Below are positions 9,259 through 34,784 of a stretch of 64,000 nt of DNA, piece after piece (position 1 is the stretch's first letter; each line of letters opens with the position of its first letter). The notes under the pieces were generated by a model, which saw nothing but the letters and a program-made list of their open reading frames with translations, did no database searches and had not been told where the DNA came from. Origin of the DNA: a bacterium (GTDB lineage: Bacteria; Armatimonadota; Zipacnadia; Zipacnadales; UBA11051); the NCBI GenBank assembly GCA_021372615.1, contig JAJFUB010000013.1, forward strand, positions 62,001 through 126,000. The letters are read 5' to 3'. The translations under genes were made by a program, and so were the position numbers.

Positions 9259-9299
9259 CCGCGCAGCGCCGCATTGCACGAAGCAGCAGGAGTATCCGC

Positions 9300-9806: not shown

Positions 9807-9814
9807 GCTCGGCC

Positions 9815-11429: not shown

Positions 11430-11634
11430 GCCGTGCGGCGCGTCGGAGCACACAAGCCAGACAACCAGTCACACAGGCGCGAGCGGTCATAGACCGCATG
11501 AGCCGCACGTCCCCGCGCGGGCGGGCAGGTCTGTCTGTGTCTGGTCGGGGGATTGCCGCACTGTCGCGCAGTGACCGGCGGTGACAGCGCCGTCTGTTCC
11601 ATATGCAACCATCTCACACTCTCTGGGTACTCGC

Positions 11635-14125: not shown

Positions 14126-15277
14126 CTACCCGTTCCCCCCCTCCGTCGCCTCCCCCCCGTTCGGCGCGCTCGAGTCAATCGAGTCCATCAGTGAGTGCAG
14201 GAGCAGGTCCTGACTGGCTCCGAACTGCAGTAGGCTCATCTCCACGGTCGCCGCGGTAATAGCCGGCGGACCCTCCTCCCTGGCGCGCACGCCGGCCATC
14301 GCCAGGCCCCGACGGCACGCCAGCCGGAGCACCGTTACCAGCGCCCCGGGCGCTACCTGATACACCGTCGGGCTGGGCCTTTCCGTCCGCACCCCCGTGG
14401 CGTGGTCGAAGATGTAGTCGACGGTCGCCTCGGGAATGGTCACACCCAACTCGACCTCCAGCGCCTCGGCCGCCTGCGCGAGCATGGCGTACACCTGGTG
14501 TGGCGATAGCTCTGGCAGGACGATGTGCACAACGTCGCTGACCGTGGCCAGCAGGGCTGCCTCCATGGGCGTGGTGCAGAAGGCCACGCCGCGTAGGCCC
14601 GCCGGCAGGACACGCGCCAACTCCTGGACATGCCCGCGCGGGATCACCGGCACATGGCCACTGCACGTGAGGTCCTGCACGACTTGCGCCAGGCGTTCCT
14701 CGGTCCCCAGGGCACCGCTCTGTGTCTGCGAAGCGCTCAGTTTCAGCCAGTCGAGTTCCATGACCCGCCCGTGGCGCAGCTCCGGCAACACCGTCTCCCC
14801 CGCCAGCATCCGGCGAGCCAACTCGATCGCGACCGCGTGGCAGCCCGTACCGGGGAAGCCCTGGACGGCGACCAGGTGGTCCGCCGCCACGGCATCCGCC
14901 AGAGCTTGCACGACTTCCTCTCGCTCCACACAGGGCGTCGTAGGGAAGCAGGCGACGTGCAGGCCCCAGTCGCGGCAACAGCGCGCTGCGCCCGGACGGA
15001 TGCCCTTCAGCCGGGGCGGGGGTGCCGTCATGTCTGGCCCACCCAGCGCCAACACGCTCTCGACGAGGGCCTCGTCGGGAGTGGCGTAGTGGCCGATGGC
15101 TTTGCCGAGCAGATCGAGGGAGACGACATCCTCACCCTCGCGCGCAATGTCGAAGCCCCGGTGGTGTATGTCCCGGCAGGGCACACCGCGCAAGCGCAGT
15201 CGCGCGGACTCCTCGTCCATCTCAACCGAGACGCTGCCCATGGCGTCGAGCCACTCGATGTTGTGTGCGTTGAACAT
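14126..15277 (-). CDS. Clp-like AAA+ domain protein lacking the Walker lysine (pseudo-ATPase?)
   Basis: 383 residues. Residues 130-330 follow the layout of the first AAA+ module of ClpA/ClpB. A P-loop-like stretch GFPGTGCHAVAIELARRML (140-158) has Cys146 where Lys should be. LGTEERLAQVVQDL matches the Clp block around GEFEERL, but the following strand (GHVPVIPRG) has no DE Walker B. HIVLPELSPHQVYAMLAQ and LEVELGVTIPEATVDYIFDH match the Clp small-domain region. It probably cannot hydrolyse ATP and may be a structural or adaptor partner. GTG and two ATG starts lie close together; I took the ATG placed nine bases behind GGAG. Last gene of the operon, 50 bases behind the second PafA-like gene. 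Confidence 0.6.
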   Translation of the reverse strand: MFNAHNIEWLDAMGSVSVEMDEESARLRLRGVPCRDIHHRGFDIAREGEDVVSLDLLGKAIGHYATPDEALVESVLALGGPDMTAPPPRLKGIRPGAARCCRDWGLHVACFPTTPCVEREEVVQALADAVAADHLVAVQGFPGTGCHAVAIELARRMLAGETVLPELRHGRVMELDWLKLSASQTQSGALGTEERLAQVVQDLTCSGHVPVIPRGHVQELARVLPAGLRGVAFCTTPMEAALLATVSDVVHIVLPELSPHQVYAMLAQAAEALEVELGVTIPEATVDYIFDHATGVRTERPSPTVYQVAPGALVTVLRLACRRGLAMAGVRAREEGPPAITAATVEMSLLQFGASQDLLLHSLMDSIDSSAPNGGEATEGGNG

Positions 15278-15327
15278 GTCACCCATCTCCACATGCTGCC
15301 GAGCCTGCGCTCACCCCCGCCCTTCGG

Positions 15328-16956
15328 CTACGTGGGCTCCCGCTCGGTCAGCACCTGCTCAGCCGACACGCCGACCAGGTCGGCATAGCGCTGCATGAGC
15401 AGCCAGTCATCGCGTGTGACGGTGTCATTGAGCACGTTGCCCAGGTGGTGCATGTGTATCAACTGGCCCTCGTCGGTGCGGAGCTTGATGCCGATGCGGT
15501 CGAAGCCGGCGAAGCAGGGGGCCAGCCGGCCGGCGCTGCGCTCGGAGATCGCCGCATAGGCTTCCATGAGGCGCTGCCGCTTGGCCGAGCGAGTGGGCGG
15601 CACGTAGCTCGGGTCGGCGGTGTCTCCGAAGGGAGCGCGCTGCCAGGCGGCCACATGCGGGTACGCCTCCATCAGGCGCTCGTACAGGCCGTCGGCCATC
15701 GCGAAGTCGTGGTACAGCAGGTTCAGCCCGAACATCTCCCGCTGCAGTTCCATGGCCTCGGTCACGAAGGGCAGACGGGCGGCATCGCCGTCCGAGGTTG
15801 GCGCCGCGCTGGCGGTCTGCGCCACCGTGGACGGCTCGTAGCCATGCTCCTGGCACACCGGGCGGAAGACGAACTCGTGCTTGATGACAGCGTCCAGGCC
15901 CAGCAGCGGGCCGGACACTTCCCCGGGATAGCGCTCCAGCGCGCCGCGCAAGGCCGTCAGCTGCTCCAGGGCCCAGGCGACCCATGCCACCTGTGTCTTC
16001 TCCCCCTCTGTCAGTAGCCGGTCGTACAGCGCCAGTCGCAGGTCTAGCAAGTCCAGGTGCGTCCACTCCCTGCCGCCGATAGCCACGGGCTGGTGAATGG
16101 TCTCGCCGAAGCGCTGGCTGAGGGCCAGGCGAATGGTGAACCACGGATCGGGTGGCGCGATCTCCAGGCCGCGCTCCTTGAGGAGCCGCAGCACCTCGGC
16201 CGTGTGGTGGCAGCCCAAGTGGGCGTCCATGGCCACCGTGGCCGCCGACAGGGCCCGCTGGTAGGCCGACCGTGCCCATCCCGCCTCATAGTGGGTGTAG
16301 TGCAGCGTTTCGATCTCCTTCACCTCAAAGGCCGGTACCTCGCGTCCCGGCTGCAGGAGGCCCTTGAAGGAGATGCAGTCATTGCTGATATCGGTGACGA
16401 TGGCGCGGCTGCGGACCTCCCACTCCGGGCCGAAGTGCACACCGATGCCGCCCCAGACCTGGCAGGTGCCCAGGAAGTACAGCATCACCTGGCGCACGTC
16501 GTCGCGACGCAGGGCGGTGCGCAAGCCCGGCAGGCTCGGATCGTTGAGGCTGACATTCAGGTGCGAGCCGGCGAAGGTCAGGCGGCGGCGTCCGCCGCGC
16601 ACATAGCCGCAGGCCCCCAGCTTGATGCGCTCGCCCAGGCGCTCGCGGAGGATGCGCCGGTTCTGGTCCTGCGCGGCGGCTAGCTGGAAGGGGGAACCGC
16701 ACTCGGGGGTCTGCGTCTCCAGCAGGTCGCTCTCGCGGGACACGTCGTAGTAGAAGGCGCCCCCGCCACGCAACATGCAGTAACGCGGGAAGCGCCAACG
16801 GATCTCGTCGGTGGGCATGGTGTCGGTGTGGGGCATGGCACAGCGGCGAATGATCTCCGCGCGCTGTTCGGCGAGCAGGTGGCTGTTGCCACCGGTCGTG
16901 AGGTAGTGCTCGCAGTCATTGCCCATGGCCACTCGCGCCAGCGTCTCGGTGCTCAT
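15328..16956 (-). CDS. PafA/Dop-like protein 2 (Pup ligase/depupylase fold)
   Basis: 542 residues, close to the 450-500 of Pup ligase PafA and depupylase Dop, which share the glutamine-synthetase-like ligase fold. The N-terminal strand MGNDCEHYLTTGGNSH (11-26) aligns with the metal-binding G-x-E-x-E-x-G of PafA/Dop, with Asp14 for the first Glu. GGAFYYDVSRESDLLETQTPEC (from residue 65) matches the block around the catalytic Asp (here Asp71) and the TPEC. A region with FAGSHLNVSLND fits the later N/H block. ATG overlaps the stop of its paralogue (ATGA) and is preceded by GGGAG. Whether it ligates, cleaves or is regulatory cannot be decided; the altered first metal ligand could mean a changed activity. 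Confidence 0.65.
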   Translation of the reverse strand: MSTETLARVAMGNDCEHYLTTGGNSHLLAEQRAEIIRRCAMPHTDTMPTDEIRWRFPRYCMLRGGGAFYYDVSRESDLLETQTPECGSPFQLAAAQDQNRRILRERLGERIKLGACGYVRGGRRRLTFAGSHLNVSLNDPSLPGLRTALRRDDVRQVMLYFLGTCQVWGGIGVHFGPEWEVRSRAIVTDISNDCISFKGLLQPGREVPAFEVKEIETLHYTHYEAGWARSAYQRALSAATVAMDAHLGCHHTAEVLRLLKERGLEIAPPDPWFTIRLALSQRFGETIHQPVAIGGREWTHLDLLDLRLALYDRLLTEGEKTQVAWVAWALEQLTALRGALERYPGEVSGPLLGLDAVIKHEFVFRPVCQEHGYEPSTVAQTASAAPTSDGDAARLPFVTEAMELQREMFGLNLLYHDFAMADGLYERLMEAYPHVAAWQRAPFGDTADPSYVPPTRSAKRQRLMEAYAAISERSAGRLAPCFAGFDRIGIKLRTDEGQLIHMHHLGNVLNDTVTRDDWLLMQRYADLVGVSAEQVLTEREPT

Positions 16957-18596
16957 GACAGGCTCCCTTCTTCATACGGTCCCATCAGCATGGGGTACAT
17001 GCCGTGCCCGGCGCCGCCCCCGGACGGGCTGGACGGTGCCGGCGCTGACACCACCTTGCCCCCGCTGCGGACGTGGTGCTGCGTCCGGTAGCGGTGGGTG
17101 TAGCTCAACTCGGTGCGGTAGGGGGCGGCCGGGCCGTCGAGGATCTCGTCCAGGCTCAGCCCCTCCAGGCCCCCGATCCGCGCTAGTGAGCAATCCTCAG
17201 GCGTCGGCAGCGACAGGCGGGCGCTGCGACGCGGCAGGTTCAGACCATCCCAGTCGCACATCTGCAGCCGCTCGCCCTCAGTGATGCAGCGCTGAGCAAT
17301 ATGGCCCCGCAGGTACGCCCGAGTGACCGTCGGCGGCGTGGTGAACGCCTCGGCGAGCTGGAGGGGCGCGAACGGCGGGGCGTGTCCCAGGACGCGGGCG
17401 ATGTGCTGACCCTCCGGCTCAAAGAGCGCCGGCTCGATCTGGTGCCACAGCACGTCCAGCTCGCGGGCGGTGCGGTTGTCGGCGGCCTCGAACGTCATCC
17501 TCTTCGCAGCCCACTCGACGCCGCTGGCGAAGAGGTCGCGGCGCCGCAGCGCGTCTATGACCTGCCGGAGCCAGCGGTCGTAGCGCCGCCAATGCGGCAG
17601 AGCCTCCGCCGCGTGTTCATCGTCCTCCAGGACCGCCGCGATGGTCGCCAGCCCCTGCTCGGCGAGGTCCAGCGCGTTGGCGGAACGGCCGTCGTTGAGT
17701 GGCACGGGCAGCCACGGATCGCGGTTCATCACGGCTGCCGCCAGCAGCGGCTGGCGCAGCGACAGATCCGGATACGGCCGCACGGGAGCGGGGCGCAGCA
17801 GGGCGTAGGTGGCGGCCTGCACCAGCGCGATGCGCAGTTCCTGCGTTGGGCTGACAGTCGTGTCGTGCGGGCCGATGCAGTGGTTGCGTGTGCGGCTGGC
17901 GTCGTCGTTCAGTGTTTCGCGGTTGCCGCGCAGGTTCAGGCTGATCGTGCGCTGGAAGGTCGTCTCGTGCGACGGGAAGAGCGTCTCCATGCTCTCCAGC
18001 CGCTGTCCGCACAGGAAGGCGGTCTCGTCGTAGTCGTCCCCCACCGCTCCGCTGCCCAGCAGTACTGCCGCCGCGGTCACGAACGGCACATAGGCGCGGA
18101 GGACCGTGGAGAAGCACTCGCCCACAAGCAGCCGCCAGTCGTCGCGCCCCACCTGCACATTGATATGTCCGGCTCGGTAGACATAGCCCGTGCCGCGTGA
18201 CTTGCGCGAACGGTTCATGAGCCAGACCAGGGCCTCCTGGGGACATTCGGCGGCGGCCTGGGCCAGCATGTACTCGGTGGCGCACAGATGCAGATAGGCC
18301 TCGTGCGGGTCCAGCGTCTCGCACGAGGTGACCTCGGGCTGGTCCAGGTCAATGTAGACGGCGCCGCCGTCGGGCAGGGGCAGCAGGTCAGCCGACGCTC
18401 CCCAGTAGCCCCCCGGCGTGCTCAGCCCGTAGCTGGTCCGTACCGGCTCATCACCGAATACACGCTCGTTGAGGGCCTGTAGTACGTGACGCGCCCCCTG
18501 GGCCTGCGGGTCTGGCCAGCGCTGTGTCGTCTTGGTGACAGCCAGATGCTCCCATTCGTTGCCGAGGATCGGCAGGACACAGGTCTCGTTGCTCAT
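16953..18596 (-). CDS. PafA/Dop-like protein 1 (Pup ligase/depupylase fold)
   Basis: 547 residues. The first strand LPILGNEWEHLAV (8-20) keeps the E-x-E metal pair (Glu14, Glu16) of PafA/Dop. GGAVYIDLDQPEVTSCET (78-95) matches the segment with the catalytic Asp (Asp83). RGTGYVYRAGHINVQV (135-150) fits the SYG-x-HENY block. VPFVTAAAVLLGSGAVGDDY (170-189) matches the PFLVTRQ..TGSGRVG block, and SRTRNHCIGPHDTTVSPTQE resembles the late R-x-H-x-x-x-x-D region. In known systems these enzymes join, or remove, the C-terminal Glu of Pup to lysines. The paralogue downstream shares the G-N-x-x-E-H start. I chose the ATG behind GGGGAG, not the GTG three codons earlier. Starts 18 bases after the AAA ATPase gene. 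Confidence 0.7.
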   Translation of the reverse strand: MSNETCVLPILGNEWEHLAVTKTTQRWPDPQAQGARHVLQALNERVFGDEPVRTSYGLSTPGGYWGASADLLPLPDGGAVYIDLDQPEVTSCETLDPHEAYLHLCATEYMLAQAAAECPQEALVWLMNRSRKSRGTGYVYRAGHINVQVGRDDWRLLVGECFSTVLRAYVPFVTAAAVLLGSGAVGDDYDETAFLCGQRLESMETLFPSHETTFQRTISLNLRGNRETLNDDASRTRNHCIGPHDTTVSPTQELRIALVQAATYALLRPAPVRPYPDLSLRQPLLAAAVMNRDPWLPVPLNDGRSANALDLAEQGLATIAAVLEDDEHAAEALPHWRRYDRWLRQVIDALRRRDLFASGVEWAAKRMTFEAADNRTARELDVLWHQIEPALFEPEGQHIARVLGHAPPFAPLQLAEAFTTPPTVTRAYLRGHIAQRCITEGERLQMCDWDGLNLPRRSARLSLPTPEDCSLARIGGLEGLSLDEILDGPAAPYRTELSYTHRYRTQHHVRSGGKVVSAPAPSSPSGGGAGHGMYPMLMGPYEEGSLS

Positions 18597-18614
18597 GTTG
18601 CACACTCCCCGGGT

Positions 18615-20318
18615 CTAGCTCGCATTACGGAAGCGCATCCGGACCTCGCGGGCAGAGGTCGTGTCCAGCAGTGCCTCGCGGTCCACGTGCAGACCGGTCA
18701 CGCGCTGGGCTTCCTCGCCCGACAGCCCCAGCGCCACGACCAGGTCCTCGGGTGCCAGGAACGCCACATTCGCGTAGAGCTGGCGCTTCAGTTCGCCGGC
18801 GAGGCTGAAGGCGCTCAGGCAGGTGTCGTCGTAGTACGCAGCCCGTGCCGCTGCCTGTACGCTCTGTTCCAGCGTGCGTCCGCTGACCGCCTCGGAGGCC
18901 TGGTAGACCCGCCCATGGTCGCTGCTATCGAACACCAGGCGGATGAGCGGGAAGTCCAGGCCGCACAAGGCCATCTGAGCCGTCGTCTCCGGCTCGTCGT
19001 CAAGCTGCACCCGCGACAGGTACGCAGTCAGGATGCGCACGGCCGTCTCGCGCTCCGGCAACCCCACCGCCACCGTCTCGGAGATGCGGCTCAGCAATGC
19101 GGCATCCAGCCGCGACTGGTAGTTGCTGGTGAAGGCCAGGATGCGGATCGGCTCGCCGGGCTCGCGCGGACGGCCCAGCATGTCGGCGATCACCGCGAAA
19201 ATGCGCGAGGTGACATCGGCGCTGGTGGAGTCCATGTGGGCCCCGCGCTTGCGCATGATCGCGTCCACCTCGTTCATCACGATCAGCGTGTTCTGGTCGC
19301 CGCCGGCGGCCAGCGCCTCGCGCATCAGCTTCTCACTGCGGCCGAACCACTCAGAGGTGATGTTGGACGTGTCTATGCGGATGGTCTGGTAACCCAGGGC
19401 CGCCACCTCACGCGCCAGATGGCGTTCCGCGATGGTCGTCTTGCCCGTGCCGCTCGGGCCGGCGAACAGGATGGTCTGCGGCAGGCCTATCCCGTAGCTG
19501 GCGGCTCGCTCGGGGTCGCGCATCACCTTGATGATCTGGCCGATGCGCTGCAGCACTGAGGGCGAGTAGATGAAGTTGTCCTCCTCCGCCGGGAGCGGCG
19601 TGAACACGTTGTAGAGCGGGTTGCGCCGCGTCTCGGCAGCCTCGTCGGCCTGGGGCGCAGGATACGCGATGCGGATCTTGCCGTCCGTCACGCGCACCCG
19701 GTCCCCGGGCGTCAGCTCCGCCAGGTGCGGCTCCAACTCCGCCGAGGCGATGGCCACCACGCTGTCTTCGGCCAGCACGCCGTCGCGCAGCTCCAACTCG
19801 ACATGGATCCGCCCCTCGCCCGCAGGCTGGACGGCCTTCAGTCGCGCTGAGACCAGCCCCACATGGTCGTAGCCGTACGAGCCGAAGTAGGCGGCATCGC
19901 CCTCAGCGCCCAGTGCGAACTGCACGGTCTCGCCCAACGACGGCGCGCGGGCATCCTGCGGCAGGATGATGAAGTCGGCATCGTCAATCCAGATGGCCAC
20001 CAGCGGCTCGCCGTGGATGATCTCCTGCATGATCCGGGTGACGCGCCCGATACGGCGGGCCGACGAGGCCTTCACACGATCGAGTTGCTCGCGCACGGCC
20101 TCGTACTCAGCTCGGGCGTCGGCTACCTGTTGGGTGTAGCTGTCAAAGGCCTCGCAGATGCGGTCTACCGCGTCTGGCGGGACTTCGGCCGCCAGCAGCG
20201 AGCCCCGGAGATGGTCGCCAATGCCCACCGGGTCCAGGGGGAAATCCCGCTGCGAGGCCGCCGCCAGGTGCTGGTTGATGATGCTGGCGATATCGGCTAT
20301 GAGGGTCCGTCGTGTCAT
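18615..20318 (-). CDS. Proteasomal-type (Mpa/ARC-like) AAA ATPase
   Basis: 567 residues laid out as in Mpa/ARC: an N-terminal helical region with coiled-coil-like segment about 60-87, a beta-rich double OB-like region about 105-220, one AAA module 275-425 and a helical end. Walker A is GPSGTGKT (287-294), Walker B LIVMNEVD (345-352) with Asn349 replacing the usual Asp, and sensor-1 region FTSNYQSRLDAALLSR. In Mpa this ring unfolds pupylated proteins into the 20S proteasome. Here the C-terminus (MRFRNAS) lacks the GQYL-like docking tail, and no prcA/prcB lies in the window. ATG overlaps the RING stop (ATGA). It may unfold or extract tagged proteins without a 20S core. Confidence 0.85.
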   Translation of the reverse strand: MTRRTLIADIASIINQHLAAASQRDFPLDPVGIGDHLRGSLLAAEVPPDAVDRICEAFDSYTQQVADARAEYEAVREQLDRVKASSARRIGRVTRIMQEIIHGEPLVAIWIDDADFIILPQDARAPSLGETVQFALGAEGDAAYFGSYGYDHVGLVSARLKAVQPAGEGRIHVELELRDGVLAEDSVVAIASAELEPHLAELTPGDRVRVTDGKIRIAYPAPQADEAAETRRNPLYNVFTPLPAEEDNFIYSPSVLQRIGQIIKVMRDPERAASYGIGLPQTILFAGPSGTGKTTIAERHLAREVAALGYQTIRIDTSNITSEWFGRSEKLMREALAAGGDQNTLIVMNEVDAIMRKRGAHMDSTSADVTSRIFAVIADMLGRPREPGEPIRILAFTSNYQSRLDAALLSRISETVAVGLPERETAVRILTAYLSRVQLDDEPETTAQMALCGLDFPLIRLVFDSSDHGRVYQASEAVSGRTLEQSVQAAARAAYYDDTCLSAFSLAGELKRQLYANVAFLAPEDLVVALGLSGEEAQRVTGLHVDREALLDTTSAREVRMRFRNAS

Positions 20319-20881
20319 GATTCGCTCCACCCTTCTTGCCCCTTGAGCATGAAGCTCTCGCGTTGCCGGTCGGTGCGGCAGATGGCGCAGGAGCAGACAG
20401 GACATGCGGTCGGCTCCTCACCTTGCAGACATTGCGGATGGAAGGCCCAGGAGCAGGCCGGGCAGTAGACCACCTCGTCACCGGCGTGCAGTGGTTGCCC
20501 GTCGTCCATACAGGCCGCGCACAGCACGGGCCCGCTCGCGACGTCGTCCGGCGCCCAGAGCGGCTCAGTCCGCTCGGGGTCGAGGAAGTCCTGGGTCACG
20601 TAGCGCCAGACCTGCGCGCCACACTCGATCGTGTCGCCGTTGACGACGCGGCAAGTGCCCGCCAGCAGGGGCAGACCGCGCACACGTGCGAGGCCCGGTG
20701 GGGTTAGCAGTACATGGCCCCCGTCGTGCCCCACCAGCACCGGGACATCCACCGACTCGCCTGGCTGCAGGCGCCGGAGCAATCCGGCCGGCTCGTCGCC
20801 ACTTAGCACGACCGCGGCGTGGCAGGGCAGGCCGATGGACTCGACGGCCTCGTTGTCCTCCAGGCGCATCAACCGAGGCAT
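20315..20881 (-). CDS. Prokaryotic RING-type zinc finger protein (candidate E3)
   Basis: 188 residues. The C-terminal part has eight zinc ligands in C4HC3 order: C121-x2-C124, C140-PA-C143, H148, C151, C160-PV-C163 (VYCPACSWAFHPQC at 138-151), the cross-brace layout of RING/PHD-like fingers and of the Prok-RING families described next to bacterial E1/E2 genes. Two more Cys follow at 165 and 168. Residues 1-110 are beta-rich (LAGTCRVVNGDTIECGAQVW resembles an FHA-like sandwich edge) and may bind substrate. Overlaps the JAB gene by 13 bases and the AAA gene by 4. Probable E3-like bridge between E2 and target; this role is inferred from context. Confidence 0.8.
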   Translation of the reverse strand: MPRLMRLEDNEAVESIGLPCHAAVVLSGDEPAGLLRRLQPGESVDVPVLVGHDGGHVLLTPPGLARVRGLPLLAGTCRVVNGDTIECGAQVWRYVTQDFLDPERTEPLWAPDDVASGPVLCAACMDDGQPLHAGDEVVYCPACSWAFHPQCLQGEEPTACPVCSCAICRTDRQRESFMLKGQEGWSES

Positions 20882-21819
20882 GATTCGACCTCCTGGTCGT
20901 CTGTGACGGGCTCTGTCTCCGGGCCGGCCTCGATGTGTAGGTTCACCTGCTGCAGGGAGCCATTGATCCAGCGGAAGCCGGCAGCCGTCGGCTGTTGGCC
21001 GACACTGGCGGCGATGATGAACAGGCCCTCGGCGCCCGCCGACCACAGACACAGGTCCCAGTCCATCGGGGAGGGGGCGATCAGGCCGTAGGGGTGTGTG
21101 TGGCAGGGCCCCAGGATACGGAAGGGCGGGCCCATGGCCGCCACGCTGTCTTGGGCATAGGCCCAGTCCTCGGGGCTGAACTGGACGGTCGCGGCCCCGG
21201 CGCCCTCAGCCGCGCCAGGCGGAACGATGACATCGGTCACGACCGGCACGCCGCCCGGCCCCAGGACCCCGACCGAGAACGCGCGCTGCTCGGCCTCGTC
21301 GGTCATCGCCACCAGTTGGCTGATGACCGCGCCGGCCTGCGCCGTGAGCATGGCCTCCCTGGCCTTGACCGAGTAGTCGCAGTCCGGCAGCACGTAGTCG
21401 AACACCGGCACCTCGGGCACGGCCTGCTGGTCCACATACAGGGCAGCGGTGGCACGGTCGCCGGGCAAGAAGATGTTGTGATGGCTGGAGAGAGCCTCGA
21501 CCAGGGCCTTGGTCTCCATCAGCAGAACGGCCGACATGGGGAGGTCGCGTGCGGTCGCCACGGTGCCATCGCTCGCTCGCACCTCGATCCGGCAGGTGAC
21601 GAGACGGAGGCGCCCTGACGCCGTAGTCTGTCCCTGGCAGGCGACGCGCAGTTGCAGGGGTGTGCCACCGGCGAGGCTGCTGCCCAGTTCCTCGAGGGCC
21701 ACCCCCTGCGCGGCCAGCTCCAGGCGTCGCCACAGGACCTCCGGCGCCATCAGGAAGGTCGTGGCGACATCGGGATTCGTCTGGTTGTGGATCGTCACAT
21801 GAAGGCCGTTGCCTGCCAT
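20869..21819 (-). CDS. JAB/MPN (JAMM) metallopeptidase, deubiquitinase-like
   Basis: 316 residues. Residues about 150-290 form a JAB domain with a complete zinc motif: CHTHPYGLIAPSPMDWD gives His240, His242, Ser250 and Asp253 (H-x-H-P-x6-S-x2-D), with Glu177 as likely catalytic Glu. In related systems such enzymes trim Ubl precursors or remove Ubl from targets. The N-terminal 140 residues are a separate beta-rich domain that I do not recognise. GAGGAG lies ahead of the ATG; 68 bases separate it from the Ubl gene. All catalytic residues appear intact, so an active peptidase is expected. Confidence 0.88.
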   Translation of the reverse strand: MAGNGLHVTIHNQTNPDVATTFLMAPEVLWRRLELAAQGVALEELGSSLAGGTPLQLRVACQGQTTASGRLRLVTCRIEVRASDGTVATARDLPMSAVLLMETKALVEALSSHHNIFLPGDRATAALYVDQQAVPEVPVFDYVLPDCDYSVKAREAMLTAQAGAVISQLVAMTDEAEQRAFSVGVLGPGGVPVVTDVIVPPGAAEGAGAATVQFSPEDWAYAQDSVAAMGPPFRILGPCHTHPYGLIAPSPMDWDLCLWSAGAEGLFIIAASVGQQPTAAGFRWINGSLQQVNLHIEAGPETEPVTDDQEVESCLG

Positions 21820-21887: not shown

Positions 21888-22160
21888 CTACGCGGCGGTC
21901 AGGCGCGGGATCACCGTGACCTGACCGGCGGTCAGCAGGTCGCGCACGCGCTCATCCTGCAGGCTCTCGCTCGGGCGCAGGAGCTCGCCCGACTCGGCCC
22001 GCAACTGGTAGTCCAGGGGCATATTGCGCTGACTGCGCGACGGCAGTTGCAGCCGCCACACCGCCTCCGCCGCGACATCGGCGATGGTCGCGGCCGCACC
22101 CAGCTCTACGCTGGCTCGGCGTTGACCCGTCAGGTCTCGGCACTCAACCGTGTTGCTCAC
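21888..22160 (-). CDS. Ubiquitin-like (YukD-type beta-grasp) protein
   Basis: 90 residues with a beta-grasp pattern: strand VECRDLTGQRRASVEL, helix ATIADVAAEAVWRLQL, then LDYQLRAESGELLRPSESLQ and a last strand TVIPRL. The YQL...G..L....SL order is that of YukD/ubiquitin-like proteins. The C-terminus is PRLTAA: there is no diglycine, and no long tail for the JAB enzyme to remove. GTG start behind AAGGAGG; its first codons overlap the end of the 202-residue protein gene. Likely the protein activated by the E1 of this operon, but the C-terminal Ala makes the chemistry uncertain. Confidence 0.65.
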   Translation of the reverse strand: MSNTVECRDLTGQRRASVELGAAATIADVAAEAVWRLQLPSRSQRNMPLDYQLRAESGELLRPSESLQDERVRDLLTAGQVTVIPRLTAA

Positions 22161-22752
22161 GATGGTTCCCTCCTTCCTGTTGCTGAGGTGCTCGCCACCA
22201 GCGACCCCAGTTGGCAGCCAGCCCGGGGTGGTTGCGCAGCACCTCGAGAATGGGGCGCAGTTCCACCGCGATGTACCGCAGAGCTGCGTCCACCAGCTCC
22301 ACGTCCTCGTCGGTGGGCTGCAACAGCGGAATGAAGATGCTCGCCTTGGTGCAGGCCTGATTGACGGCGATAAGGTGTGTCTGCGTGTTGGCGGCCGTGA
22401 CCCAGAGATGCCGCACCGTGCCTCCTATCTCGGGCGGGGTCAGCGGGATCCAGCACTCCAGACAGTCCTCGTGCACAATGACCTGGGCCTTCACGCTGCC
22501 GCCGCACAGCCGCCGCAGCGGTTCGGCCAGCCTGTCGCGCCACGCCGCGCCGATGGCCTCGCGCTCCACGGCGCTGAGTTCCGGCCCCTTCCCGCCGGCG
22601 AGCCACCGCGCCGCGCACTTGTCCTCGCGCCAGCTGAGCGGGCCATCCACCGCGTGTCCCGTGTGCGTACGCTTGGACCACCGGCGCTCTTGGGGCAGCG
22701 TGTGCCGTGTGAACTCACCTCGGGTTGTGGCTTGTGCCTGAAGCTGCGACAT
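22144..22752 (-). CDS. Unknown protein encoded between E2-like and Ubl genes
   Basis: 202 residues, no family recognised. Start behind AAGGAG, 16 bases after the E2-like gene; its end overlaps the Ubl start, so it is translated as part of the set. The N-terminal 40 residues are basic and polar. From 60 on it alternates helices (LSAVEREAIGAAWRDRLAEP) with strands (AQVIVHEDCLECWIPLTPPE, VRHLWVTAANTQTHLIAVNQ) and ends in a Gln/His-rich tail. Three Cys occur in the middle. No membrane segment. The fixed place between E2 and Ubl suggests a conjugation cofactor or substrate adaptor; this is inference only. Confidence 0.6.
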   Translation of the reverse strand: MSQLQAQATTRGEFTRHTLPQERRWSKRTHTGHAVDGPLSWREDKCAARWLAGGKGPELSAVEREAIGAAWRDRLAEPLRRLCGGSVKAQVIVHEDCLECWIPLTPPEIGGTVRHLWVTAANTQTHLIAVNQACTKASIFIPLLQPTDEDVELVDAALRYIAVELRPILEVLRNHPGLAANWGRWWRAPQQQEGGNHREQHG

Positions 22753-22768: not shown

Positions 22769-23245
22769 TCACCGCAGGGCGTGCGCATCGAAGGGCAACT
22801 CGCCCCGGGCCTGGGCCGCCGTGTACCAGCGGGCGGCGTGGGCGTTGTAGATCCCCTCGGACATGGCCCACGACGCCCCGGCGATAATATCGAACACCAG
22901 GGAGACCACGGACCACAGCGGGATGACCGGCCCGCGCTCAAGCTGTTGCTCGAGGTTCGCGCAGATGATGCGCGGCGGGTCGGGTCGGATGTTGGGGTGG
23001 AAGGGCCGCTCACCGTCCTGCGGCTCATAGACGGCCATGAGACCATGCAGCTTCTCGGCCCCCACGAACCGGACGACATGGCGGGGCACGATCTCAATGC
23101 TGCCTTCGGGCCGTTCCACCGCGCCCAGGCAGTCGAAGGCAACCAGCAGGTGCATCGGCCCTCGCTCGATGATCTCGGCGCGCGTGCGCGGATCGTTGAT
23201 GAAGTCCACCGTCTCGGCTATCTCGCGTTCGGTGCGGTCAGTCAT
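22769..23245 (-). CDS. E2-like (UBC-fold) conjugating protein
   Basis: 158 residues, the size of a minimal E2. FHPNIRPDPPRIICANLEQ (82-100) reproduces the E2 core: HPNI at 83-86 and a Cys ten residues after the Asn (Cys95), the place of the catalytic Cys in HPN-x-x-x-G-x-x-C-L. PLWSVVSLVFDIIAG (109-123) matches the W-P..-i..vl..i..ll helix behind the active site. The preceding sheet (EIVPRHVVRFVGAEKLHGLM) fits the UBC meander. It would carry the Ubl as a thioester on Cys95. The ATG overlaps the E1 gene by 8 bases; an earlier in-frame start would overlap more and lacks family support. Confidence 0.75.
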   Translation of the reverse strand: MTDRTEREIAETVDFINDPRTRAEIIERGPMHLLVAFDCLGAVERPEGSIEIVPRHVVRFVGAEKLHGLMAVYEPQDGERPFHPNIRPDPPRIICANLEQQLERGPVIPLWSVVSLVFDIIAGASWAMSEGIYNAHAARWYTAAQARGELPFDAHALR

Positions 23246-24326
23246 CCTGCACCAGCCCCTCGACTGCAATGGTCACGGCTGTCTGTGGTTGACTGGGTGT
23301 ACGCCCCCGGCCGCGCAGCAGCAGCAGATCGCGCGCGGGTAGTCCTAGTGAGGCAGCGCTGGCGTCTGGCCGTAGCTGGTCCAGGGCCAACTCGCTCGTC
23401 CAGCCTTCCAGGGCCACCACGGGTGACTGGCAGTGCGGGCACGGGTTGCGGAAGACGCGCGGATTGGGGCGCCTGCCGCAGGCGCACTCGCTGCCCAGCG
23501 CCAGGGGTCTGAGGAACTCCAGGCGGGCCGTACCCTCGGTGATCCCCACGTCCCGCGCCACGGCCGACAGCACGGGCAGGATCGGCTCGGCCGCACCCAA
23601 CGTCACCGTCGCCTCGGGCCAGGGGGTCACCCGGGCGCAGTCGAGGAGACAGTGCGGGTCGCGGGTGAGGCGGCTGGCAAAGGCCTCACAGGCCGGGCCG
23701 AGGGCCAGGGTCGTGTCCACGCCCGCCGGGGCCCCGATGGCGCTGAGCGTCAGGGCCGCCGCGGCTTGGCCCTCGGCCGCCCCGTAGGGCATCGTGAAGG
23801 CGTCGCCGCCCTCGGCCACGGCCTGCTCGCAGGAAAAGCCGTCTTCGTTGAGGATGGATGAGATGAAAGCCTCCCCGCTGCCGCACAGAGGACAGGGCCC
23901 AGCGGCCAGGGGGAAGAGGAAGGAGCGCACTTGGGCGGCCCCCTCGCTGACATGACAGGTGAGGAGAGGCAGGGGGTGGTTCGGTGTGGCCAGACGCAGG
24001 CAGATCCCGGTCACGCGGCGCGTGGTCGCGGGGCGGTCCGTGGCGAGCACGATCAGCTCCGCTTCGCGCCACTCCTGTCCGCCGACGACGTCCTCGATCC
24101 GGCCGCAGCGCGCCGACAACTGATCTGGGCGACCGAGGGCCGCGGCCTGCTGCTGCAGCGCCAGCACCTTTGGCTTGCCCACATCGGCCGGGCCGTAGAC
24201 CCGCTCCGTGGTGCGTGCCGTGACAGGCTTGGGGTCGGCGGCGATCAGCTTCCACCCCTGGCGCAAAAGGGCCAGCACGATGGTCGTGCCTGGTAGTCCG
24301 AGGCCGGCGCTGATCGCCTTGTGCAT
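23238..24326 (-). CDS. E1/ThiF-like Ubl-activating enzyme
   Basis: 362 residues. The N-terminal Rossmann fold has G-L-G-L-P-G (8-13), Asp31 in LIAADPKPV, the ATP-contacting Arg42 in ARTTERVYG and Lys53 in DVGKPKV, then VLATDRPATTRR: the ordered signature of MoeB/ThiF/E1 enzymes. GPCPLCGSG may hold the thioester Cys or a zinc ligand. Residues near 300 carry C-A-C ... C-P-H-C, a zinc-ribbon-like element, followed by a small C-terminal domain that could present E2, like a UFD. It would adenylate a Ubl C-terminus with ATP. GGAGGAG precedes the ATG, 53 bases behind the Pup-like gene. Family secure, pairing with the local Ubl inferred. Confidence 0.85.
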   Translation of the reverse strand: MHKAISAGLGLPGTTIVLALLRQGWKLIAADPKPVTARTTERVYGPADVGKPKVLALQQQAAALGRPDQLSARCGRIEDVVGGQEWREAELIVLATDRPATTRRVTGICLRLATPNHPLPLLTCHVSEGAAQVRSFLFPLAAGPCPLCGSGEAFISSILNEDGFSCEQAVAEGGDAFTMPYGAAEGQAAAALTLSAIGAPAGVDTTLALGPACEAFASRLTRDPHCLLDCARVTPWPEATVTLGAAEPILPVLSAVARDVGITEGTARLEFLRPLALGSECACGRRPNPRVFRNPCPHCQSPVVALEGWTSELALDQLRPDASAASLGLPARDLLLLRGRGRTPSQPQTAVTIAVEGLVQDD

Positions 24327-24379: not shown

Positions 24380-24550
24380 CTACTCGCCTTCGTGGTTGGA
24401 TTGGGCCAGATCGTGGCGCTCGTGGGCCGTGTTGCGGAACTGGTCTACGATCGCCAACGGCTGGAGCCGGGGCATGGATACGAAGCGTTGCTCCCGGTTG
24501 TCGCCGTCGTCCCCCCTAGAGGGGCCTTCGTGTTCGCGGAAACGCTCCAT
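24380..24550 (-). CDS. Small Pup/UBact-like protein ending in Gly-Glu
   Basis: 56 residues, first gene of the operon. Strongly charged and probably disordered N-terminal half (MERFREHEGPSRGDDGDNRE), then a possible amphipathic helix (PLAIVDQFRNTAHERHDLAQ) and the C-terminus NHEGE. Size, polarity, helix position and the terminal Gly-Glu are those of Pup (GGE/GGQ end) and of the Gram-negative UBact proteins, the substrates of PafA-type ligases. Two PafA/Dop-like proteins are encoded downstream in the same operon. AAGGAGG sits at ideal distance from the ATG; an in-frame start 11 codons earlier has no such site. No diagnostic catalytic motif exists for this family, so the call rests on these features plus context. 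Confidence 0.55.
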   Translation of the reverse strand: MERFREHEGPSRGDDGDNREQRFVSMPRLQPLAIVDQFRNTAHERHDLAQSNHEGE

Positions 24551-24611
24551 GTCTTCCCTCCTTCCGCAGAATGGTGGTTGCACATTAGGCTAGAACAGTC
24601 GTCTAGAAGTC

Positions 24612-24640
24612 TTGACCTGTAGTGTGAACTTGTATATCAT
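24612..24640 (+). promoter_or_regulatory. Promoter toward the 444-residue protein gene
   Basis: TTGACC (24612-24617), 17-base spacer, TATCAT (24635-24640). It overlaps a promoter on the other strand. The leader to the ATG would be about 220 bases, long enough to hold regulation. A short inverted repeat CTAGA/TCTAG (24590-24606) lies just upstream. Confidence 0.55.
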
Positions 24641-24660
24641 GTAGGCGGGTCCCGTGTCAA
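24631..24660 (-). promoter_or_regulatory. Promoter of the Ub/Pup-like operon
   Basis: On the minus strand: TTGACA (24660-24655), 18-base spacer, TATACA (24636-24631), giving a leader of about 75 bases to the Pup-like gene. Its -10 shares bases with the -10 of the plus-strand promoter, so the two polymerases compete or are jointly controlled. The same short leader contains the CTAGA/TCTAG dyad (24590-24606). Confidence 0.55.
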
Positions 24661-24865
24661 CACCCTTGTTGGGCACTGTCTCCATTCCGGACAGGTAGGC
24701 TGTACCGCCCGCGTCGTGGACCAATTGTGCGGCAAGACGCGCTACAGTCAGCAATCATCTGAATGCTGCAACGTGCACAGGAGAGGCAGCAAGGGTCGAG
24801 GACCGGGCAGGCGGCGTCTTCGTGTGCCGGGAAGCTCCCCGGCGCCAATCCGTGGGAGGTGTACG

Positions 24866-26200
24866 ATGGCGACGGACATCTTCGCACAGAGGGAACTCCG
24901 CGAACGCATCACGCACTGCTATCAGGAGCTGTACGGGGACTACTGGGGTGGACTGTGGCGCAACTTCTACGCCCGCAGCGGGGGCGTCTGTCTGGTAGGC
25001 ACTTACGGGGACGTCCGCCTGCGCGACGCCTTCGCCGTGCGGGAGATCATCCAGGTTCTACCCCTACGTGAGATGGCAGTGCTGGTGATGGACGACGCCG
25101 AGGCGCGTTTCCCGGGGGATGTCGTCATCATCGCTCGCCCCGACCTCTTCGCCAGCCGCCATGCCAAGCGCGTGCTGGCCGACGCCCACCAGGTCCGCCA
25201 CTTTTTCCATCTGGGGCGCTACGCCTTCATCAACGTCACCGACGGGAAGTGCTACTGGCGGGCCCGCCAGGGGCCAATGATGCGCGAGTACGGGTTAGTG
25301 GCACGGCGCGTCCGTTCCAACGGCCACCACGTCATCACCGTCTCCGGCCTCAGTCGCATCGGCACATGGGCGGCAGCCAAGAGCTGCAGCGACATGCACT
25401 ACCTCGATGCAGTAGAGAGCCTACTGCAACCGCGGCTGCAGCAAGTGGCTGCCGAGAGCGGCAAGGACCCGGCCAACATCGGCTTTGAGGTGCTGGTGGA
25501 GGTCACGTACGAAGTCGAGAAGCAGGAGAAAGCCTACCTGGCGCAGTTTGACCTGGATGCCACCCTCTATCCGCTGATCACCTGCGAAGGACCGCCCCCC
25601 GCTTACTACGAAGGATCCAGTGGCGATGTCGTACGCGAAGAGGATCTGATGATCCGCCCCGTTGCCGTCGCCACGGAGTTGCAGACGCCGCGCGCCGAGC
25701 ATGTGGTCATCGCCCTGGTCAAGGGCGACTGCCCCGCGAACGCCACGACCGACCCGAACCTCATCACACACTTCGTAGTGGATGGCATAGACCTGGTGGA
25801 GAAGGGGACGAACCGGTTCAACATGCTGCTGCAGGCCTGGTATCGGGGACCACGGAGCGAGAAGGAGTTCGAGAGCGGGGAGATCAAGCCGAGCCTGCAC
25901 TACCCCGCCAAAGACGCCCGCACCATCCGCTGCCAGTTCAACCGCGAGGCCAACCGCTTTGGTGTGCCGGGGGAGCTGGCCCGCTGGTCCGGCCACCAGT
26001 ACTACATCAACACGATCTCACAGCACTGGCTGCCGGCCTGGGAGCACGTAGACATGCCTGGGCTGACCAACCCGCCTCCGGGGCTGTCGCCAGTGGCGCA
26101 GACGCCGGCCGGTGCTCCGACAACTCCCCGCAAGCGGCGTCCCAACACGCCCCGCGACGAGGTCACCTGCCCGCCGACAGGCACCGATCCACTCGGTTAG
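24866..26200 (+). CDS. Unknown protein divergent from the Ub/Pup-like operon
   Basis: 444 residues, family not recognised. GGGAGG precedes the ATG; upstream in-frame starts lack a ribosome site. Residues 1-150 alternate strands and helices (GGVCLVGTYGDVRLRDAF, EMAVLVMDDAEARFPGDVVI), and HHVITVSGLSRIGTWAAAKS (about 151-170) resembles a sensor-like Rossmann edge. The middle has YEVEKQEKAYLAQFDLDATL. The last 70 residues are Pro-rich and disordered, ending TGTDPLG. No signal peptide or membrane segment. The overlapping divergent promoters suggest it is co-regulated with the Ub/Pup operon, as a regulator, substrate or effector; which one cannot be told. Confidence 0.7.
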   Translation: MATDIFAQRELRERITHCYQELYGDYWGGLWRNFYARSGGVCLVGTYGDVRLRDAFAVREIIQVLPLREMAVLVMDDAEARFPGDVVIIARPDLFASRHAKRVLADAHQVRHFFHLGRYAFINVTDGKCYWRARQGPMMREYGLVARRVRSNGHHVITVSGLSRIGTWAAAKSCSDMHYLDAVESLLQPRLQQVAAESGKDPANIGFEVLVEVTYEVEKQEKAYLAQFDLDATLYPLITCEGPPPAYYEGSSGDVVREEDLMIRPVAVATELQTPRAEHVVIALVKGDCPANATTDPNLITHFVVDGIDLVEKGTNRFNMLLQAWYRGPRSEKEFESGEIKPSLHYPAKDARTIRCQFNREANRFGVPGELARWSGHQYYINTISQHWLPAWEHVDMPGLTNPPPGLSPVAQTPAGAPTTPRKRRPNTPRDEVTCPPTGTDPLG

Positions 26201-26229: not shown

Positions 26230-27030
26230 TCAGGACGTCTCGTCCGCCCCGAGCATGTCAAGCAGCTCGAGGTCCGGCTGGAGGTCCTCGCAGAAGCGGT
26301 TGGCTAGCGCCTCCGCTACTTCCTCATCCTGCCGGGTGTAGATGGTGACGTTCTCGTGCCGCTGATCGCCCGGGTCGAAGGGGGCCGTGTAGGGTTCCTC
26401 GTTCAGCCACTCACCGTCTCCGGGCGGTAGGCACAACACCTTCCCGTCCGGCCCCAGCTTGTTCTCTAGACTGAGCATTAACACCGGTCGCGGACCCCGC
26501 GAGGACGGGATGAAGGCCGGCACGTGCAGCAGGCTCTCGCACCGTCCGCTACGGAAGAACGGCGCCTCACGGGTGCGGCGATAGCGCTTGGCCTTGTGCT
26601 GGGTGATGTGGTAGCCCCCCAGGTTGATGAGCTTGCCCGACCGCAGCGGCTCGGTGGTGAGCGAGGTGTCCACCAGTGGAGCTGTGCACGTGGCGGTCGT
26701 GAGTTGCCGACGGCGCCGTGTCTCCAGGTCCTGGAAGCGGGCAGCGGCCGGTAGCAGCAGGCATTCCGCATCCTCCACCAGCCAGATGGCCGCCAACTCG
26801 CTGGGAATGGCGTCGAAGGCCTCCTCGCACAGCCTACCCAGCACGTCCTCGAGCACGCGGGGGAGGAAGAAGTGGCGCAGGCCGTTCGTCTCCAGCAGCG
26901 AGAACTGGCGCGGCGGGTCGGCCGCCTCCCAGTTGGCGATGGTGCGCGCCGACAGGCCCAAATCCACGGCGATCTCCGCCTGCGACAGCCTGGTGCGCTT
27001 GCGCAGTTGGGTGAACTGGTCCGAGTTCAT
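26230..27030 (-). CDS. Cro/C1-type HTH regulator with sensor-like C-terminal domain
   Basis: 266 residues. The N-terminus FTQLRKRTRLSQAEIAVDLG plus LSARTIANWEAADPPRQ (residues 6-42) is a Cro/C1 helix-turn-helix. Residues 60-240 are a mixed alpha/beta domain (AIWLVEDAECLLLPAAAR, LINLGGYHITQHKAKRYRR, RPVLMLSLENKL) resembling a GAF-type sensor; ligand unknown. GGAGG lies ahead of the ATG chosen, six codons inside the longer frame. It is the last gene of the radical SAM operon (18 bases from the next gene) and converges with the 444-residue gene, so it probably regulates this region. Confidence 0.8.
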   Translation of the reverse strand: MNSDQFTQLRKRTRLSQAEIAVDLGLSARTIANWEAADPPRQFSLLETNGLRHFFLPRVLEDVLGRLCEEAFDAIPSELAAIWLVEDAECLLLPAAARFQDLETRRRRQLTTATCTAPLVDTSLTTEPLRSGKLINLGGYHITQHKAKRYRRTREAPFFRSGRCESLLHVPAFIPSSRGPRPVLMLSLENKLGPDGKVLCLPPGDGEWLNEEPYTAPFDPGDQRHENVTIYTRQDEEVAEALANRFCEDLQPDLELLDMLGADETS

Positions 27031-27048
27031 CAGCGTCACCTCCAGCAT

Positions 27049-28317
27049 TCAGCAGCCTTGCAGCGGGCACAGCGGGTCAGGGCCGGCGAAGTCCCCCCTG
27101 GCCAGATAGGCATGCACGGGACATGACCCAAAGCAGCCGTAGCCGTACCGCGTGCATCGGGTGCAGGCCGGGTTCTTGCTCAAGCGTAGGTCCCGGAACA
27201 CGCGCCAGACCTCCGCCTGCAGCCATAGGCCATGGATCTGGCAGGCCGACATGTGTCGGACATTGCCCGCGGCGAACGGGGCGCGCGCCGCCGGGTCAGG
27301 CGACCCGCCCGGCGAGCAGCCACACGCGTGCATCCAGCCGGCCGGGGAGATGAACGCCGCCTCGCGGCCCGCCGGGCACCAGCGCACCTTGTGGATTACG
27401 GGATCGCTGGCCTGCCCGGCCACGGCTCCGACGTCCGCGCCATACTGGAATTCGACCTGCAGGTCGGCCTGTCCTTGCCGCTGGCCCAGCAGATGCGACA
27501 CGGCGGCCATTTCGGTCGCGCCGGGGCGGTCCGCGGCGAACTGCCCGGAAGCGCCGCGCCCTGTCGGGCGGGGAGCGATCAGCGACAGATGCCGCACACC
27601 GCGAGCCTCCAGCCAGCGCATGAAGTCAGACAGGACCGGTAGCAGGGACCGCGTGATGACGGTGTTCACGCGCAGGCTGCGTCCGGAGGCCAGCAGCCAG
27701 TCCACCGTCGCCATCGTCCGTGCGAACGCCCCGGGCCCACGCAGAGCGTCATTGATGTCCTCGGGCCCATCCAGCGACACGAGGTACCGCCCGATCGAGC
27801 GGGCGAGCAATTCCTCGGCGAGCCCCTCGCGCCATACGCCGTTCGTGCCCAGAGACACGTACAGGCGGCACGCGAGGGCCTCGTCAATGAGTTCGGGCAG
27901 ATCCGGCCGCGCGGTCGGCTCCCCGCCGGTGAAGCGGATCTCGCGGACACCGATGGCCGCCAGACGGTGGATCAGGGCGCGCAGCTCACCGGTCCCGAGT
28001 TCCGGCTCCGGCGCAATCGTGTCGCGATAGCACATCACACATGACAGATTGCAGCGCCCTGTCACTTCCAGATAGATGCGGTTGGGGCTGCTCAGGCAGC
28101 CCTCAGGCAACTCCTCGGCCCACGAGCGCGTGGCGAAGTAGAGCAACGTGTCATCGTTCGCGGCGGCACGTCGCAGGGACTGGAGTTCCTCCTCGCCCAA
28201 CTCCGTGACGACGCCGGTGTGCGGATCGAGGGCCTGTCCGCCGACGCGCTCCTCGCGAATGCGTCGCGCGATGGGGACCGCAGGTAGACCCTCCTCGGGA
28301 ATGGTATGGAGGATCAT
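27049..28317 (-). CDS. Radical SAM protein with C-terminal Cys-rich (SPASM-like) region
   Basis: 422 residues. YLEVTGRCNLSCVMCYR carries the C-x3-C-x2-C cluster site for the 4Fe-4S/SAM unit; EIRFTGGEPTARPD is the GGE motif. The C-terminal part holds many Cys (HACGCSPGG, ACTRCTRYGYGCFGSCPVH, CPLQGC), as in SPASM/twitch domains that bind extra clusters. Such enzymes often modify peptides or proteins. ATG overlaps the previous gene stop (ATGA) and follows GGAGG. Substrate unknown; no precursor peptide is seen nearby. Confidence 0.88.
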   Translation of the reverse strand: MILHTIPEEGLPAVPIARRIREERVGGQALDPHTGVVTELGEEELQSLRRAAANDDTLLYFATRSWAEELPEGCLSSPNRIYLEVTGRCNLSCVMCYRDTIAPEPELGTGELRALIHRLAAIGVREIRFTGGEPTARPDLPELIDEALACRLYVSLGTNGVWREGLAEELLARSIGRYLVSLDGPEDINDALRGPGAFARTMATVDWLLASGRSLRVNTVITRSLLPVLSDFMRWLEARGVRHLSLIAPRPTGRGASGQFAADRPGATEMAAVSHLLGQRQGQADLQVEFQYGADVGAVAGQASDPVIHKVRWCPAGREAAFISPAGWMHACGCSPGGSPDPAARAPFAAGNVRHMSACQIHGLWLQAEVWRVFRDLRLSKNPACTRCTRYGYGCFGSCPVHAYLARGDFAGPDPLCPLQGC

Positions 28318-29513
28318 GGCCGTGCCTCCGCCAGCAGGTCCACGAAGCAGTACGGATCGCCCGCGTCCATCGCTCCGTTCACGACCAGCGCCGACACGGC
28401 GCACCCGCCGAAGCACGGCGAGCCATACAGATAGGCGCAGCGACGGCACTTGTCCGCGAGCCGTGCATTGACCAACGGACAGGCATCACGCGACCGCCGC
28501 CAGATGGTCAGCAGGTCGTCCTCGCGGACATTGCCGACGCGGGACTCCGGACGGCCGGATAGCTGCCCGCAGGTGAAGCAGTCCCCGCCAACAGTGACCG
28601 AGATGCCGCCTTGGCCGCAGCCCAGACGCTTGTGGGCGCCCTGGACAGGAGGCCCGGGCGGCGCGGCCAGGTAGTCCCAGGGCGTGTCGAGGCGCATCTG
28701 CGGGTACTGCCGGCGCAGGGCGACGACCCGCTCCACGAGGGCACGGTGCTCCTGCGCGTCAAGCATATCGCCAGGCGCGGCTCCGCCGACCGGTCGCAGG
28801 GGACTGAAGGCCGCGGCAGCACCCATCTGGGCCGCCAGCGCTACGACGTGATCCACGCAGTGCTGGTTGCGGCGGTGGAAGGTCATCGAGAGGCGCACGC
28901 GCTGCCCGGCGGCACACAGTGTGCGTGCGCTGTGGACACACTGGTCATAGCTGCCCGCGCCGCGGATGGCATCGTGGGTCTCGCGGTCGCCCTGCAGCGA
29001 GAGATAGACGGCCGATATGGGGGCATGTGCCAGCTCCCCCCGCAACGCCCCGGCGATCATCCCGTTGCTGACCAGGACGGTGGTCATCCCCAGCCCGGCG
29101 CTGGTCGCGATGAAGCGCAGCAGGTCAGGATGCAGCGTGGGCTCGCCCCCGGACAGTCGCACCTCCACCCCGCCGTGCTCGGCGTGGGCGCGAATGAGAC
29201 CCTCGATCTCCCATGTCGTCAGCTCGTTCTCCAGGGCCCGACCGGACCGGTTGTAGCAATACCAGCACGAGCACTGACACGCGGCTGTGAGGTCCAGGAA
29301 GAGCGACAGCGGCGCCCCCCAGTGACGGCTGCCGGGCGCGTAGACGGTACGGTAGTCAATGGGCTGCACATCGTCGCGGTTGGCCCAGGTGAGCAGGTCG
29401 TCGCTCGGCAGGTACTCCCAGCGCCCGGACACGCGGTCGTGGTGGATCAGGCACGTGCTCTCAGCACGAACCAGGTGGGGCTTCACCTGGGGGGCAAGCT
29501 GTGGCGTCGCCAT
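28314..29513 (-). CDS. Radical SAM protein with SPASM-like C-terminus
   Basis: 399 residues. LDLTAACQCSCWYCYNRSGR has the C-x3-C-x2-C site, VEVRLSGGEPTLHPDLLRF the GGE motif. The C-terminus has CGQ...FTCGQLSG and KCRRCAYLYGSPCFGGC, an auxiliary cluster region. Architecture matches PqqE/anaerobic sulfatase-maturase-like enzymes. GGAGG sits eight bases before the ATG chosen; a GTG four codons earlier lacks spacing. The gene overlaps the MazG-like gene by 31 bases and the next radical SAM gene by 4. Function unknown. Confidence 0.88.
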   Translation of the reverse strand: MATPQLAPQVKPHLVRAESTCLIHHDRVSGRWEYLPSDDLLTWANRDDVQPIDYRTVYAPGSRHWGAPLSLFLDLTAACQCSCWYCYNRSGRALENELTTWEIEGLIRAHAEHGGVEVRLSGGEPTLHPDLLRFIATSAGLGMTTVLVSNGMIAGALRGELAHAPISAVYLSLQGDRETHDAIRGAGSYDQCVHSARTLCAAGQRVRLSMTFHRRNQHCVDHVVALAAQMGAAAAFSPLRPVGGAAPGDMLDAQEHRALVERVVALRRQYPQMRLDTPWDYLAAPPGPPVQGAHKRLGCGQGGISVTVGGDCFTCGQLSGRPESRVGNVREDDLLTIWRRSRDACPLVNARLADKCRRCAYLYGSPCFGGCAVSALVVNGAMDAGDPYCFVDLLAEARP

Positions 29514-30070: not shown

Positions 30071-30074
30071 CCCC

Positions 30075-33285: not shown

Positions 33286-33347
33286 CAGCGCAGAGCTGCG
33301 TTCCGTGCTGAGTATGAAAGGCTTTCTGTAAGCACATTCTCGCTGAG

Positions 33348-33376
33348 ATGATGAGCCTTCGACCGCGGGTTGTCAA
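33348..33376 (-). promoter_or_regulatory. Promoter of the radical SAM operon
   Basis: Minus strand: TTGACA (33376-33371), 17-base spacer, CATCAT (33353-33348). Leader of about 55 bases. The bases AGTCTTGAC around the -35 also occur at the plus-strand promoter near 24612. Confidence 0.5.
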
Positions 33377-33405
33377 GACTGTTGTCTTCGTGCCCCCGGT
33401 ACCGA

Positions 33406-34758: not shown

Positions 34759-34784
34759 GCGTGCCTCCCGTCGGTGTTGCGTGT

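Follow-up and report, generated by a model that had tools for sequence, protein, structure and literature searches.

We analyzed a 64,000-nucleotide stretch of DNA (hereafter, the window), in which an operon on the minus strand is headed by a 56-codon open reading frame (Table 1). The ATG of this frame lies at 24550-24548 and its stop codon at 24382-24380, and the deduced protein is MERFREHEGPSRGDDGDNREQRFVSMPRLQPLAIVDQFRNTAHERHDLAQSNHEGE. The sequence in front of the start codon reads GGAAGGAGGGAAGAC-ATG and carries an AGGAGG motif at 24562-24557. The downstream E1 gene starts at 24326, 53 bases beyond the stop codon. A preliminary description of this DNA had placed a 56-residue gene with an ideal ribosome site at the head of the operon, directly ahead of E1, and had described its product as a charged protein ending in H-E-G-E. 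Our analysis bears this out: six bases separate AGGAGG from the ATG, the codon usage is like that of the neighbors, and the HEGE end is read from the minus strand, which the description did not name.

Table 1 Features of the operon in the window.
Feature	Position	Strand	Evidence
Promoter-like TTGACA (24660-24655), 18 nt, TATACA (24636-24631), 5' of the 56-residue frame	24631..24660	-	By eye; below the rule of the promoter scan
Shine-Dalgarno AGGAGG, ATG 6 bases downstream	24557..24562	-	Sequence
56-residue frame, probable Pup-type modifier, ends HEGE	24380..24550	-	Sequence, frame census, codon score, AlphaFold2
E1-like (ThiF), CxxC-type zinc-binding pairs	23238..24326	-	Pfam ThiF 28.7 bits (cut-off 28.1); hhalign to relatives' E1, E 6.2e-06
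E2-like, HPN and conserved Cys	22769..23269	-	hhalign to relatives' E2, E 2.6e-09
Uncharacterised protein X	22144..22752	-	Weak best match to relatives' X, E 0.046
YukD-like ubiquitin-fold protein (Ubl), 90 residues, ends PRLTAA	21888..22160	-	Pfam YukD, E 1.2e-04 (below cut-off); hhalign, E 1e-10
JAB/JAMM protein (HTHP...SxxD), likely Ubl protease	20869..21819	-	hhalign, E 9.3e-07
RING-like protein, likely E3	20315..20881	-	Pfam Prok-RING_1, E 0.0019 (below cut-off); hhalign, E 2.6e-12
AAA ATPase, likely unfoldase	18615..20318	-	Pfam AAA, 2.2e-19; hhalign, E 4.4e-23
PafA/Dop-family enzyme 1 (here 'PafD')	16953..18605	-	Pfam Pup_ligase 104.9 bits (cut-off 25); hhalign to relatives' first ligase-like enzyme, E 2.8e-22
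Highly divergent PafA/Dop-family enzyme 2	15328..16956	-	Retains a catalytic-type Asp (YYD) and GSHLN; hhalign to relatives' second enzyme, E 4.5e-05
Gene following the second ligase-like gene, ClpB-like ATP-binding stretch	14126..15292	-	Common to G010, 34% identity

Codon usage supports translation of the frame. The GC content at the three codon positions (0.73/0.39/0.82) was similar to that of the operon genes. The codon score was 0.224, a value at or below which 20 of the 269 in-frame 56-codon pieces of operon genes fell, and it was reached by 18 of 1345 pieces taken from other frames. We consider it confirmed that the frame is a real gene, and a gene this small is easily missed in a bacterial genome.

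The encoded protein is 36% charged and contains neither Lys nor Cys. An AlphaFold2 model made without an alignment, and as a single-sequence model weak evidence, left residues 1-32 unstructured and placed a helix at residues 33-54 (mean pLDDT 70.7, pTM 0.30). The size and charge fit Pup, as would the predicted layout of a disordered N-terminus and a helical C-terminus; Pup/UBact modifiers have a helical core with an extended tail, and the model shows a single helix. A terminal Gly followed by Glu or Gln (G[EQ]) was found in 6 of the 563 window frames able to give 40-110 residues, or about 1%, and the 56-codon frame is the only coding-strand frame of that size within the operon with this ending.

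Near the other end of the operon, the two genes for ligase-like enzymes of the PafA/Dop family overlap by four bases. The second enzyme scored below the cut-off of Pfam Pup_ligase (PF03136; 14.7 bits, E 0.015) and matched PafA and Dop sets in hhalign at E about 1e-05; its Asp (YYD) and His/Asn motif align with the PafA and Dop motifs. An AlphaFold model of this enzyme failed (mean pLDDT 39.7). Upstream of the operon, a divergent gene on the plus strand (24716-26200, about 444-494 residues) had no Pfam or PADLOC match. Beyond it, the minus strand at 26230-36146 encodes an HTH protein, three radical SAM proteins (two SPASM, one B12-binding), an MFS transporter and a glycosyltransferase, which may form a peptide or natural-product cluster.

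Operons in which genes for a RING protein, E1, E2, a YukD-like Ubl and JAB stand together with those for two PafA/Dop-like enzymes and an AAA ATPase were found in six other Armatimonadota genomes, designated G089, G091, G259, G024, G268 and G266. They came to light through a search of the phylum with Pup_ligase, follow-up searches and reading of the surrounding stretches; Pup_ligase itself matched in 188 of the 291 phylum genomes, by score mostly as canonical pairs. The gene order of this hybrid family is RING, E1, E2, X, Ubl, JAB, AAA, first ligase-like enzyme, Pup-like protein, second ligase-like enzyme. G024 has the gene order of the window, and contig ends truncate the operons of G268 and G266. 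A Pup-like gene lies between the two ligase-like genes in all five relatives with a readable gap, and its product ends in QQSGE (G089), QRGGQ (G091 and G024), QDGGQ (G259) or QQGGE (G268). This count leaves out G266, whose contig ends before the gap, and G257, G100 and G048, where the stretch read shows PafA-like genes but no E1/JAB set. The five Pup-like proteins are related to each other, as none of 100 shuffles reached the score of any of them. Their likeness to UBact is weak (1 to 19 of 100 shuffles reached the score), and Pfam Pup matched one of the five weakly (E 0.045). The hybrid operon family with its two modifiers is a larger, stronger and more interesting finding than the 56-residue protein.

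Other arrangements of these genes were seen in the same phylum. G089 (C290, C582) and G091 (C2, C18) each have, in addition to the hybrid operon, a separate canonical PafA/Dop-proteasome locus, and a UBact gene was read at that of G091 (L040). In G100 (L126, G100:C14:4001-24000, about 5598-10063), three PafA/Dop-like genes stand in tandem, and neither E1 nor JAB is matched in their vicinity.

We compared the components of the window operon with those of the hybrid family in a 9 x 9 profile matrix (hhalign). The correct partner was the best match in all nine rows, clearly in eight and weakly for X, so every component other than the Pup-type tag has a homologous part. Because the matching component tops every row, we take the window operon to be a divergent member of the hybrid family. 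It differs in the place where the relatives carry their Pup-like G[EQ] gene, since the overlap of its ligase-like genes leaves no room there. With this gap closed and no other coding-strand G[EQ] frame of this size in the operon, the 56-codon frame is the only remaining candidate for the tag in the window.

The nearest relatives of the window operon are in G010 and G012. Among the 291 phylum genomes, the E1 of the window found one further genome, G010, and the first ligase-like enzyme matched both. Where readable, the gene order in both is that of the window, and the ligase-like genes abut, so that the gap is closed there as well; neither has a G[EQ]-ending frame between these genes. The contig of G010 ends inside E1 and that of G012 inside E2, and the site corresponding to the 56-codon gene is therefore invisible in both. 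A search of the two genomes for the missing N-terminus of E1 gave only matches of E 0.19 and above. In the stretches of G010 that were read, two frames ending in G[EQ], one of 98 residues over the JAB gene and one of 44 residues far past the last operon gene, were judged implausible. Of two scans of genome contigs for relatives, one was empty and the other gave only G010 and G012. Viral contigs yielded no relative, and plasmids no relative of E1; the PafD-type query matched two actinobacterial records in part.

The 56-residue protein had been called Pup/UBact-like. The part of this claim that stands is the operon context, namely the Pup-like genes of the hybrid relatives and the position of this frame as the window's sole candidate. 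Similarity in sequence, whether to Pup or to UBact, does not back the claim. The profile match proposed as a check failed to appear, as Pfam Pup and UBact gave no match even at E 10. When HMMs were run over all 1175 window frames, the protein took ordinary ranks with UBact (272 of 1100), with the relatives' Pup-like proteins (25 of 1113) and with both jointly (282 of 1128). One other frame, on the plus strand at 11240-11581, had a better HMM score (E 0.00028) and was dropped, being rich in Ala, Arg and Gln and having no G[EQ] end. Alignments anchored at the C-terminus, with the last two residues excluded, were no better than shuffles, whose scores reached that of the real protein in 111 of 200 cases for the relatives and in 185 of 200 for UBact. 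The residue preceding the terminal Gly-Glu is Glu in the 56-residue protein and Gly or Ser in the Pup-like proteins of the relatives. In hhalign, the protein matched the relatives' Pup-like set at E 0.036, a score reached by 1 of 100 shuffles and by 9 of 400 in a second run, and UBact at E 0.31. The match to the relatives covers residues 2-18, a charged low-complexity stretch that includes neither the helix nor the tail, and this local N-terminal similarity is only suggestive. No homologue of the protein was found in the 291 phylum genomes, where the matches were at chance level (best E 0.006 per genome).

According to the available parts of Iyer 2008 (PMC2588565), Pup proteins have 50-90 residues, end in G[EQ] and are encoded invariably beside a PafA gene. 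The protein of the window has this length and this ending; its gene shares an operon with the PafA-family genes but is separated from them by seven genes, about 5.8 kb. The lack of profile similarity and of adjacency weighs less against a protein that works like Pup than against one that is a Pup, given the homology of the partner enzymes and an explanation for the missing place. The protein is a probable Pup-type modifier by context, with a sequence too diverged to prove membership in Pup. We therefore think it fairly likely, on the evidence of the operon, that the 56-residue protein serves as the Pup-type modifier of this hybrid conjugation system.

The operon also encodes a likely second modifier and E1/E2 substrate, the YukD-like Ubl, which the preliminary description had passed over. 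Since pupylation as known proceeds without an E1, the one encoded next to the 56-codon gene more likely serves this Ubl. The Ubl ends in PRLTAA in the window and G010 and in PRLTAARSGT in G012. Among the hybrid relatives, it ends in AG in G266, G024, G268 and G259, and in AG followed by RGSRG in G089 and by RGAGG in G091. These tails resemble extensions of a precursor, which JAB would cut off behind AA or AG.

Operons of the window type might instead have lost the Pup-like tag, with the divergent ligase-like enzymes acting on another substrate, such as a small molecule or the C-terminus of the Ubl, and the 56-codon gene encoding an unrelated protein, such as a regulator, that ends in Gly-Glu by chance. 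Loss would account for the absence of detectable homology to the Pup-like proteins, and it agrees with the change of both the enzymes and the Ubl C-terminus (AG in the relatives, AA in the window type) and with the readable parts of G010 and G012, which have no Pup-like gene. However, it would leave to coincidence that the small gene at the operon head has an ending found in about one frame in a hundred, and that the size and composition of its product also fit Pup. We consider this explanation unlikely, and the next in probability after the preferred reading.

Two further explanations turn on the position of the gene. Directly ahead of E1, it could encode a substrate of that enzyme, a further modifier adenylated at its C-terminus; this is very improbable, as the protein has no predicted beta-grasp fold and the operon itself supplies a better Ubl. 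At the head of the transcript, the frame could yield no functional protein or act as a leader peptide controlling the operon, in keeping with a GC-rich hairpin within it (listed on the plus strand at 24509-24525). The codon signal and the ribosome site speak against such a role, to which we likewise give very little credence.

Under the preferred reading, in which the 56-residue protein is a Pup-type tag, a working scheme can be built on what was observed, namely the frame with its position and coding signal, the homology found for the remaining parts and the Pup-like genes of the relatives; we infer each of its reactions. One of the operon's PafA/Dop-family enzymes would phosphorylate the C-terminal Glu at its gamma-carboxylate and join the protein to target lysines. 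No deamidation would be needed, because the C-terminal residue is already Glu. The paralogous enzyme would remove or transfer the tag. Threading of its disordered N-terminus would fall to the AAA ATPase of the operon, with no 20S proteasome involved. A parallel route through E1, E2 and RING would attach the YukD-like Ubl, and JAB would trim and remove this modifier.

A proteasome-family search gave a match in all ten genomes searched. From sequence and place, the strong match in G000 was read as HslV, and so was the sole match in each of G010, G012, G024, G268, G259 and G266. An additional match, labeled PrcB-type on the same grounds, was confined to G089, G091 and G090, the last a canonical genome included for comparison, and G000 had a second, sub-threshold match (C113, E 8.3e-04). 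No PrcA/PrcB pair was seen in the genome of the window, an absence to be read within the limits of incomplete assemblies. The available parts of Iyer 2008 (PMC2588565) list Plesiocystis and Rhodopirellula as having no linked proteasome genes.

Protein tagging is regarded as having been invented independently in ubiquitination and in pupylation, with unrelated enzymes. Both are kept in one operon here, with the gene content held across divergent Armatimonadota, suggesting that they can work as one pathway. Tentatively, one operon may run two unrelated tagging chemistries with two modifiers, one of ubiquitin fold and one a Pup-type peptide. These might act on shared substrates, or one of them on the other, and bring tagged proteins to the AAA unfoldase without a 20S proteasome; the tag of the window would have been remodeled to a lysine-free form and moved to the operon head. 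The hybrid operon offers a compact system for studying how substrates are shared between two tags and what role a tag has when no 20S proteasome is encoded.

Burroughs is said to have reported in 2011 RING-containing forms of the bacterial E1-E2-JAB-Ubl operons. A search of titles and abstracts found no description of the hybrid operon, the UBact (Lehmann) and RING (Burroughs 2011) papers lying outside that search. An operon joining ubiquitin-type and Pup-type genes is not described in the available parts of PMC2588565, PMC1779556 or PMC11354881. Sporadic Dop/PafA homologues in Armatimonadetes are mentioned in the accessible portion of PMC7947786.

The window operon resembles the actinobacterial Pup/PafA/Dop system (PF05639, PF03136) in encoding a small, probably disordered protein ending in Gly-Glu together with PafA/Dop-family enzymes and an AAA ATPase. 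It differs in that this protein has no sequence match to Pup and its gene lies about 5.8 kb from the ligase-like genes, and in the addition of E1, E2, RING, Ubl and JAB with no PrcA/PrcB pair seen in the genome. UBact (PF20513), known from Armatimonadota and other phyla, shares with the 56-residue protein the phylum, a similar size, the charge and the G[EQ] end, whereas the RYRQRSG[EQ] motif common to UBact proteins is lacking in it. The bacterial operons described in the available parts of Iyer 2006 (PMC1779556) likewise encode E1, E2 (HPN...Cys), JAB and Ubl together, and compared with these the window operon adds PafA/Dop-like enzymes, an AAA ATPase and a second, probable Pup-type modifier.
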